Shown in pieces: positions 20,149-41,966 of a stretch of DNA of 64,000 nt (its first letter is position 1; every line of letters begins with the position of its first letter). This DNA comes from Ignisphaera cupida (GTDB lineage: Archaea > Thermoproteota > Thermoprotei_A > Sulfolobales > Ignisphaeraceae). A program made the translations under genes and the position numbers. A model generated the notes under the pieces. That model did no database searches, was not told the origin of the DNA, and was given only the letters and a program-made list of their open reading frames with translations. The stretch is from NCBI RefSeq assembly GCF_030186535.1, contig NZ_JASNVW010000006.1, positions 1 through 64,000 on the forward strand, given 5' to 3'.

Positions 20149-20240
20149 GCCGCCGTAGCTCAGCCTGGTAGAGCGCCGGACTCATATGCTATTTAGGTTG
20201 GGAGATCCGGTGGTCGCGGGTTCAAGTCCCGCCGGCGGCA
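20149..20240 (+). tRNA. tRNA-Met(CAU), elongator type, with intron
   Basis: Acceptor stem GCCGCCG/CGGCGGC with discriminator A, D arm, anticodon stem CCGGA/TCCGG and T arm all fold. The anticodon CAU occupies 34-36. An 18-nt intron (20187-20204) sits after base 37, the canonical archaeal site cut by the splicing endonuclease at a bulge-helix-bulge. The acceptor is not that of an initiator (which starts AGCGGG in archaea). A tRNA-Ile2 with modified C34 cannot be fully excluded. The spliced body matches the tRNA-Thr(CGU) of this window at 69 of 74 positions. Confidence 0.9.
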
Positions 20241-20937: not shown

Positions 20938-21014
20938 GGGGCCGTAGTTTAGCTTGGTAGAATGCGGGGCTTGGGCCCCCGTGGTCCGGGGTTCAAATCC
21001 CCGCGGCCCCACCA
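20938..21014 (+). tRNA. tRNA-Pro(UGG)
   Basis: Acceptor GGGGCCG/CGGCCCC, D arm, anticodon stem CGGGG/CCCCG with loop CTTGGGC (anticodon TGG), T arm with GGTTCAAAT. Discriminator A at 21011, and CCA is encoded (21012-21014). No intron. A TATA-like CTTAAAA lies about 35 bases upstream. Confidence 0.93.
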
Positions 21015-22792: not shown

Positions 22793-22866
22793 GCCGCCGT
22801 AGCTCAGCCTGGTAGAGCGCCGGCCTCGTAAGCCGGTGGTCGCGGGTTCAAATCCCGCCGGCGGCT
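22793..22866 (+). tRNA. tRNA-Thr(CGU)
   Basis: Acceptor GCCGCCG/CGGCGGC, anticodon stem CCGGC/GCCGG, loop CTCGTAA giving anticodon CGT, discriminator T, no encoded CCA, no intron. Differs from the spliced tRNA-Met upstream at five positions: 31, 35, 39, one T-loop base and 73. Confidence 0.93.
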
Positions 22867-23045
22867 CTACAAAAACTTTGAATTATATTCACCATAATAG
22901 TTCTACAATGGTATTACACAACCTTCTCATCAACAACATTCTCAATTCAAATGCTTAGTACATTCCACCAAAATTTTTCTTCTTTCATTGTTTTGATCAT
23001 GTTACAATACAGTTTATAAAGTCAATATAGTTATTGGAGTGAAAG

Positions 23046-38870: not shown

Positions 38871-38930
38871 GTCATCAGTGCCGGAATCAATTCATCATTT
38901 TGCTCAGTCTAGGACGCCAACATCATATTA
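38871..38930 (-). ncRNA. C/D box sRNA (minus strand)
   Basis: On the minus strand: C ATGATGT (38920-38926), 12-nt guide, D' CTGA (38904-38907), C' ATGATGA (38892-38898), 13-nt guide, D CTGA (38875-38878). All boxes are strong. About 50 bases downstream of a second C/D sRNA on the same strand; both may come from one precursor. Targets not assigned. Confidence 0.85.
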
Positions 38931-38980
38931 ATAAGGATGTGAATTCGCTATGTAAAAATACAAGATATGTTCAAAAATAA

Positions 38981-39035
38981 TATTCAGAGTAGCTCAGCCA
39001 CATCACATTATCAGCGCCTTTACCTTCATCACAGT
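38981..39035 (-). ncRNA. C/D box sRNA with D guide matching tRNA D-arm
   Basis: On the minus strand: C GTGATGA (39026-39032), 11-nt guide, D' CTGA (39011-39014), C' GTGATGT (39000-39006), 12-nt guide GGCTGAGCTACT, D CTGA (38984-38987). Eleven contiguous nt of the D guide are complementary to GTAGCTCAGCC in the tRNA-Met and tRNA-Thr genes of this window; the D-box-plus-five rule points to G10. It begins 12 bases after the decarboxylase stop and could be processed from that transcript. Confidence 0.88.
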
Positions 39036-39046
39036 TTTAGCTAGGT

Positions 39047-39445
39047 CTATGTTCTTATAGCTTCAAAGCTACTTCTATCTGCATAGTTAACTGTATAGTA
39101 TTTAGGCTTTAAATTCGCAACTATATATTCAAATGCTTTCCAAGGATCACTCTTCTCTCCACATGTATAAACATCTACTGTTGCATATCTATATTCAATC
39201 CATGTGTGAACTGCTATATGGCTTTCAAGAACAAGTGCTATTACAGATACCCCACCTTTTTTTCCACCAAAACTCCAACTTTTAACTTCATATAACGTCA
39301 TATTAGCCAATTTAGATGCTTCTATAACCATTTGCTTTAGTTTTTCTTCGTCTTTAGCAATTTCTATATCGACTTCATATAGATTTCCATACACATGTTT
39401 GCCTATGATTCTATCCATAACATTTGTATTACTACTTTGATCCAT
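39047..39445 (-). CDS. Pyruvoyl-dependent arginine/AdoMet decarboxylase proenzyme
   Basis: 132 aa. Self-cleaves between Glu74 and Ser75 ([10 protein letters not shown]) to create the pyruvoyl cofactor. [26 protein letters not shown] and ATVDVYTCG match the AdoMetDC fold. In crenarchaea one paralogue became arginine decarboxylase; the [13 protein letters not shown] segment makes me favour that one, but AdoMet decarboxylase is possible. Either way it feeds polyamine synthesis. A TATA-like TTTATAAG lies about 40-47 bases before the ATG. Confidence 0.82.
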
Positions 39446-40248: not shown

Positions 40249-40307
40249 TTATCAGTAACACGGGTTTTCATCAAAATTGTCAGGTACAGCCGTGATCATC
40301 ATCTATA
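40249..40307 (-). ncRNA. C/D box sRNA (minus strand)
   Basis: On the minus strand: C ATGATGA (40296-40302), 12-nt guide, D' CTGA (40280-40283), C' TTGATGA (40268-40274), 12-nt guide, D CTGA (40252-40255). Both guides have the canonical 12 nt. It fills the gap between the winged-helix gene (stop 40314) and the Cas4-like gene, and may be processed from their transcript. Targets not assigned. Confidence 0.88.
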
Positions 40308-40589: not shown

Positions 40590-41966
40590 CTACTTTAGGA
40601 ATTTATCTTCCCATTTCCTTGCGAGTTCAACACTTTGTGAAACATCTATGAATAATTTACTTGCCTCCTCAACATCTTCTTTTCTTATTTCATCTCTTCC
40701 TTTTTTCTCAGCAATAATTCTTGCTGGCTGCATTAATTGAATTGCATATCTCAGACTTCTTTCACTTGCAATTTTAACTAAAAGTTCTAAAGCATCTTTA
40801 GAAAGCTTTACCTCTTCCTCATCGGCTCTAATCAGTATTATTTCCCTCATTTCATCTGTTGTATACGGTCTTACAGTTATAATTAGAAGCCTATCGAGAA
40901 GATCTAGTGGTACACCATGAGGACCTTCAAGCTCTGTGCCACGTATCTTCGTTATACCCCTGTTTGTAGCCATTATAAGTATTGGTGAGAACTCACTCTC
41001 CATTACTCTACTTAAGAAGCTAAACGCCTCTATATCAAGCATATGAACATCATCTATAAACAGAACTCCTGGAACAAGAGTAACCTTCCCTTCACTTAAT
41101 GCCTTCTTAACTGATTCGTCAACAGCTCTTCTAATCTCTGGATCTATTTCTTTTTCTTCCGTACCTACACCAATTAATGATATTACCGCCCTTTTCTGAG
41201 CTGCATATGCTTCATCTAAATCGTGAAGCGTAACTGTTCTTACAATCTCTTTCTCCTTGAATATTTTACCTTTTGGCATTTCCTCTAAAACCCTCGTTGT
41301 TTCAACATCATAGTATTTTGCTTTTTCAACACCCTTCACTCTTCCAAGTTTGAAAACCTCACCAGAATCAGCATCTATGCTTATCAAATCACCTCTTCTC
41401 ACACCTAATTGAGCAAGCTGTGTCGCAATAGCTTGATCAACTTCAAGTGTTTTCTCTTCATCTTTTGTAGCAAGAGTTATTCTTGCACCTCTAGGCACCT
41501 TTACATACGGATTGAATGGGTGTGAAGCCAATGCAAATTTTATTTCTTTTACAACACCTTCATAAACTCTTCTAAATTCTCTTATCCTAATTCCAATAGC
41601 TCTTCTAACAGCTCTCATCAAAATTTCTGTCTTCTTAATCTCACTAGAGTAAAGCTCTGCTCCATTTATCATTACAAATGGAGTGTCTTCACCAAGTTCT
41701 CTTGCTATTGCTATTGCTAATGCTGTTTTTCCAGAACCTGGTGGACCAACAAATAATATTCCTCTTCCAGCAAGCTTACCTTCTTTAATCATTTTAACAA
41801 CAACGCCAGCAGCTTTTCTAGCCTCTAGTTGTCCAACAAGACCATCAGCTATGAATAAAGGCTCTCCTTTTTCGTCTAAACCTAAGCCTCTTATATGACT
41901 GTGAGCACTTATTCTTTTTAGCATCTCTCTTTTGGATTCCTCCTTAACTTCTCTGATCATACTCAA
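40590..41966 (-). CDS. RuvB-like AAA+ ATPase (TIP49 / RuvBL family)
   Basis: 458 aa from TTG 41966 with GGTGA six bases upstream. Starts with the family's AHSHIRGLGLDEKGEP; Walker A GPPGSGKTAL near 78, the OB-like insertion domain II at about 125-290, Walker B LFIDDVHMLD near 306, and sensor-1 ATNRG near 336. Pontin/Reptin-type hexameric ATPase with chromatin, snoRNP and repair roles in eukaryotes; archaeal role poorly known. The close C/D sRNA gene is of interest because eukaryotic RuvBL assembles box C/D RNPs. Confidence 0.92.
   Translation of the reverse strand: MSMIREVKEESKREMLKRISAHSHIRGLGLDEKGEPLFIADGLVGQLEARKAAGVVVKMIKEGKLAGRGILFVGPPGSGKTALAIAIARELGEDTPFVMINGAELYSSEIKKTEILMRAVRRAIGIRIREFRRVYEGVVKEIKFALASHPFNPYVKVPRGARITLATKDEEKTLEVDQAIATQLAQLGVRRGDLISIDADSGEVFKLGRVKGVEKAKYYDVETTRVLEEMPKGKIFKEKEIVRTVTLHDLDEAYAAQKRAVISLIGVGTEEKEIDPEIRRAVDESVKKALSEGKVTLVPGVLFIDDVHMLDIEAFSFLSRVMESEFSPILIMATNRGITKIRGTELEGPHGVPLDLLDRLLIITVRPYTTDEMREIILIRADEEEVKLSKDALELLVKIASERSLRYAIQLMQPARIIAEKKGRDEIRKEDVEEASKLFIDVSQSVELARKWEDKFLK

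Follow-up and report, generated by a model that had tools for sequence, protein, structure and literature searches.

A box C/D sRNA beside speD in Ignisphaera cupida with a guide predicted to address G10 of many tRNAs

Box C/D sRNAs that target tRNAs, broadly acting ones included, are already known from Pyrobaculum (Lui et al. 2018, as cited in the review PMC7994747), and tRNA-directed sRNAs have been described to use one guide, the other being without a target (PMC7994747). Fibrillarin-dependent C/D 2'-O-methylation of tRNA, as proposed here, is also carried out with the tRNA-Trp intron guide (Cm34, Um39) and the Sulfolobus tRNA guides (PMC7994747, PMC7668247), which are described as serving one tRNA each, in the anticodon arm, in the D-loop or at C50. 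The window analysed here is a whole stretch of 64,000 nucleotides (positions 1 to 64,000 of contig NZ_JASNVW010000006.1) from the heat-loving archaeon Ignisphaera cupida, and it encodes an sRNA that would instead serve about 16 tRNAs at the D-stem. Like the Pyrobaculum families as they are presented in that review, it has one guide for a tRNA stretch common to many tRNAs and another guide for which our searches gave no target; it differs from them, so far as the review describes them (PMC7994747), in that its guide aims at G10 and in its linkage to speD, seen in Ignisphaera and its relatives. By its sequence it appears to be a good new addition to the tRNA-targeting C/D sRNAs, with the methylation predicted. 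The nucleotide concerned, G10, is the same one on which archaeal Trm11, the tRNA m2G10/m22G10 methyltransferase, acts; Trm11, however, is a protein-only system of base methylation whose m22G10 is tied to G10-U25, whereas the perfect targets of the sRNA all have G10=C25.

The locus comprises the following features:

38984..39032, minus strand: box C/D sRNA, from box C to box D (box pattern, Rfam comparison, kept in genus and family)
39026..39032, minus strand: box C, GTGATGA (from the sequence; RTGATGA in 12 of 12 speD-linked orthologues)
39015..39025, minus strand: D' guide AGGTAAAGGCG, conserved in part; searches for a target were negative
39011..39014, minus strand: box D', CTGA (sequence pattern)
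39000..39006, minus strand: box C', GTGATGT (sequence pattern)
38988..38999, minus strand: D guide GGCTGAGCTACT, with an invariant block of ten bases, D-2 to D-11 (38998..38989), and D-5 opposite tRNA G10
38984..38987, minus strand: box D, CTGA (sequence pattern)
39047..39445, minus strand: speD (S-adenosylmethionine decarboxylase; Pfam AdoMet_dc), probable host transcript

The elements thus follow each other in the order C, D' guide, D', a TAAT spacer, C', D guide and D, and a strict search for the C-D'-C'-D pattern returned three matches in the window, all on the minus strand between 38.9 and 40.3 kb and within 1.5 kb of each other, and none in 20 shuffles of the window. An initial sequence-only reading had named the element a C/D sRNA without stating its strand; the sequence is as described there, the strand is minus and the box set is complete. 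The ordered RUGAUGA, CUGA, C' and CUGA boxes with short guides that characterise archaeal box C/D sRNAs are found here and in all 12 orthologues, and fibrillarin is encoded in the genome, so that, as judged from its boxes, the element is a textbook archaeal box C/D sRNA. No Rfam family scored above its cut-off. The best was sR2 (RF01139), which resembles the element in box layout and length but has unrelated guides; its score, driven by the boxes, stays below the curated cut-off (24.6 against 42 bits), and membership of sR2 was rejected. An artefact of antisense tRNA sequence was ruled out as well, as box D, rather than acceptor-stem sequence, comes after the guide.

Box C follows the speD stop codon at a distance of 14 bases, and the mature RNA probably spans about 38980-39037. 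We assume that the sRNA is expressed as an RNA of 50-60 nt, probably processed out of the speD transcript at its 3' end, and that it would then assemble with L7Ae, Nop5 and fibrillarin. In one relative (L087) the end of the speD reading frame contains box C, the overlap being about 35 bases.

The D guide had been proposed to pair with the D-arm of tRNAs encoded in the window, and this holds: the match to GTAGCTCAGCC is exact over 11 bases in both the tRNA at 20149 and the one at 22793. The sites concerned, together with that of a weaker candidate, are:

20149..20240, plus strand: tRNA with CAT anticodon and an intron, perfect target, with GTAGCTCAGC at 20155-20164 and the predicted methylated G10 at 20158
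22793..22867, plus strand: tRNA-Thr(CGT), perfect target, with the site at 22799-22808 and G10 at 22802
20938..21014, plus strand: tRNA-Pro(TGG), weak target, with two G-U pairs and a G10-U25 D-stem

ARAGORN labels are unreliable for some intron-bearing tRNAs, and the one at 20149 (L022) has a CAT anticodon and is not tRNA-Ser. The only occurrences of the target 10-mer in the window are those in the two tRNA genes and the antisense of the sRNA itself. The genome (1.74 Mb) yielded 42 tRNA genes; the guide core D-2 to D-11 (GCTGAGCTAC) is perfectly complementary to 16 of them, which carry GTAGCTCAGC at positions 7-16, and two Arg tRNAs match it with one G-U pair. The suggestion that one sRNA may act on several tRNAs, made from the tRNAs of the window only, was therefore an undercount of the predicted targets. 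All tRNAs other than these and tRNA-Pro(UGG) have at least one mismatch to the core, the initiator-type Met tRNA having two. As had been read from the sequence, only the D-adjacent position is unpaired, D-1 being mismatched with C6 in most targets; D-5 lies opposite G10, which the D-plus-five rule thus designates as the target. As for tRNA-Pro(UGG), it does differ by C-to-T changes only, yet its two G-U pairs make it a poor target: the calculated ten-pair duplex reaches -12.4 kcal/mol versus -17.0 kcal/mol for the perfect targets, and it has G10-U25.

The match alone does not make the case. For a random 10-mer, the chance of a perfect match to any 10-mer of the tRNAs is p = 0.0016, and with about 100 guides per genome, a figure we assumed, one such match would not be remarkable. 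Conservation, in contrast, argues against chance, because exactly these ten bases are kept in 12 of 12 speD-linked orthologues and because the guide recurs elsewhere. The sRNA adjoins speD in 12 genomes of the family, with SpeD identities down to 64% and the closest copies of the locus in Ignisphaera. Among these orthologues the pairwise divergence of the ten-base core is 0.00, compared with 0.41 at D-1, 0.53 at D-12 and 0.17 per site in the D' guide; the core and its tRNA target are both invariant. D-1 is either T or G, and this freedom fits the unpaired end of a guide. The active archaeal C/D RNP is stated to accommodate ten base pairs (PMC7089733, citing Yang 2016), for which reason we regard the invariant block as the functional one. 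To our reading of the alignment, the ten-base invariance is the strongest single evidence that selection keeps the pairing to the target sequence. Two congeners that are 99% complete (G013 and G074) have no speD-linked copy, which is therefore dispensable or replaceable. No relatives of SpeD were found in viral contigs.

We consider it likely, on these grounds, that the D guide places a 2'-O-methyl group on G10 of tRNAs with a GCUC/GAGC D-stem. The guide would capture bases 7-16 of new tRNAs before or during folding of the D-arm, and methylation would then be set on G10 of those with this D-stem, with Thr, Met or Ile (CAT), Lys, Asn, Ala, Arg, His, Trp and Tyr as predicted targets. A point against this reading is that the D-stem must be open for the guide to pair. 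In the ten-pair duplex, at a calculated -17 kcal/mol, the guide occupies the 5' strand of the D-stem, so that the stem has to be unfolded, and hyperthermophile tRNAs may need help in folding; the main role of the sRNP bound to the D-arm might hence be that of an RNA chaperone or antisense during tRNA folding, with methylation incidental or absent. We find this unlikely, as the bases that never vary are precisely the ten that make up a catalytically competent duplex and the spacing to box D fixes G10, a spacing that a pure antisense would not need.

The conserved guide could also address another RNA, such as the organism's own rRNA in its masked stretch, an mRNA or a further ncRNA, the tRNA match being secondary, and here the assembly leaves some room: 5 kb of the rRNA region, including the genome's own 16S and the 5' part of the 23S, are N, so that relatives served as the control. 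In the full 16S and 23S rRNA of three genomes, two congeners and a member of another family, and in the 16S of a third congener, the D guide finds at most six contiguous Watson-Crick pairs, compared with 10-11 pairs to tRNAs, where nine or more contiguous pairs to a stable RNA including the D+5 position are expected of a guide, which has about 10-12 nt and directly precedes box D or D'. SRP RNA gave no match to the D guide, and sense matches within the window are confined to tRNA genes. Such a target thus appears very unlikely, and the much better rRNA match that could have displaced the tRNA assignment did not turn up in these relatives. Judged by complementarity, and with relatives standing in on the rRNA side, the sRNA is tRNA-targeting, with its site in tRNA and not in rRNA.

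In most orthologues, and also in a locus of another family (L059), the D' guide (39015-39025, minus strand) retains AAAGGC as a core, from which one might argue that the sRNA is kept for this guide and that the tRNA guide is a passenger. No credible target for it was found among tRNAs, the rRNA of relatives or SRP RNA, and no stretch of nine contiguous pairs including D'+5 was present in the tRNAs or the relatives' rRNA; it therefore fits the one-guide pattern of tRNA-directed sRNAs (PMC7994747). That it is the variable guide of the two, the D guide being invariant, and that the D guide turns up again beside unrelated D' guides render its role as the retained part highly improbable.

The recurrence of the D guide extends well beyond speD. 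The same ten-base core precedes a D-type box with other partner guides and other neighbouring genes in the same family (L060 and L169), and in the congener G074, one of the two that lack the speD-linked copy, it stands before the D box CCGA (L072, 1468-1680) on a different sRNA; a further C/D sRNA lies about 100 bases from there on the opposite strand. The core was also found in another family of the order (L059, where TAAAGGC is common to the D' guide and that of the main sRNA), in two Desulfurococcales MAGs (L136 and L182), in a Thermoproteales MAG (L115) and in another lineage of the phylum outside the class of the window (L230), in which it may be the D' guide. Some of these recurrences have degenerate C boxes and are weaker cases. 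The guide-plus-boxes pattern occurs in 14 of 229 genomes of the class, a count that includes one without a clear C box (G179), versus none for the reversed pattern. It was not seen in the genomes of one family of the class (f11), probably Sulfolobaceae. Of 397 genomes in the phylum, 7 matched a degenerate pattern that covers other D-arm sequences as well, and each of the 7 had precisely this core, versus two control genomes. Two further loci (L077 and L117, TGATGGGGAAGCTGAGCTACTCTGA) have no clear C box and were left out of the counts, and none of 69 chance matches in bacteria had C and D' boxes upstream.

The sequence-only reading had cautioned that G10 is the usual site of base methylation in archaea, so that a guided mark would be a different or additional one. 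This concern is partly resolved. G10=C25 and C13=G22 are present in every one of the 16 perfect targets, and none of these is among the seven tRNAs for which G10-U25 was parsed (Asp, Glu twice, Gln twice and Pro twice). In the literature m22G10 accompanies G10-U25 and is missing from stable D-stems with C25 (PMC7668247, PMC12247713), and m22G forms no normal pair with C (PMC5485724). The predicted Gm10 would thus fall on tRNAs outside the m22G10 set. The part of the concern that stands is m2G10: it occurs alone in S. acidocaldarius tRNA-Trp, where it is T1-cleavable (PMC7668247), and m2Gm10 is consequently possible as well. The predicted mark on the perfect targets may therefore be Gm10 or m2Gm10. 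The nucleoside m2Gm occurs in archaeal tRNA (PMC5485724), and a trimethylated G10 has been tentatively assigned in P. furiosus tRNA-Glu (PMC7668247); our literature search yielded no other mapped case of G10 ribose methylation in archaeal tRNAs.

Absence of Trm11 as the reason for the sRNA was ruled out, since the genome encodes a full-length homologue, with a tRNA (guanine10-N2)-dimethyltransferase as its best match among solved structures, and TIGR01177-type matches, most of them under the curated cut-off, are present in 228 of 229 genomes of the class. For Thermoprotei, m2G/m22G10 has been predicted in tRNA-Asp, -Glu and -Val (PMC12247713), and none of these tRNAs is a perfect target in this genome. 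It is conceivable that the sRNA complements Trm11 in a division of labour, Trm11 dimethylating G10 in tRNAs with the weak G10-U25 pair and one C/D sRNA adding Gm10 or m2Gm10 to about 16 tRNAs with G10=C25, where m22G would break the pair. We put this forward tentatively, with somewhat more doubt than belief, and the split between the two sets is suggestive only, because it depends for the most part on position 11 (C versus U) and the tRNA sequences share a relationship to begin with.

The sRNA has two neighbours of its kind:

38875..38926, minus strand: second box C/D sRNA, whose D' guide (38919..38908) pairs with the 3' strand of the D-stem in all three tRNA-Gly
40252-40302, minus strand: third C/D sRNA, flanked by a small wHTH-like gene and a PD-(D/E)XK gene; its guides are ATCACGGCTGTAC and AAACCCGTGTTA

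The D' core of the second (GGCGTCCTAG) is perfectly complementary to 3 of 3 tRNA-Gly, with D'+5 at G22 (predicted Gm22), and matches Pro(GGG) and Val(TAC) with one G-U pair; it does not vary among five congeners, and other genera have a similar pattern. Two adjoining sRNAs would thus address the D-stems of different tRNAs. The D guide of the second sRNA (TTCCGGCA) is conserved. The third looks like an rRNA guide, given matches of 9-10 bp in congener 23S rRNA. A gene for a TIP49/RuvBL-type ATPase (40590-41966, minus strand) lies close to this cluster of three. Eukaryotic TIP49 proteins help to assemble C/D snoRNPs.

That the same ten-base guide appears on different sRNA scaffolds illustrates cleanly how a guide can be kept, or arise anew, for the sake of its target. 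If the proposed function is correct, one small RNA would mark over a third of the tRNA genes of this archaeon at a structurally central nucleotide, the marked tRNAs would be those unsuited to the dimethyl mark of the protein enzyme, and a location would be given for the m2Gm-type nucleoside reported from archaeal tRNA.
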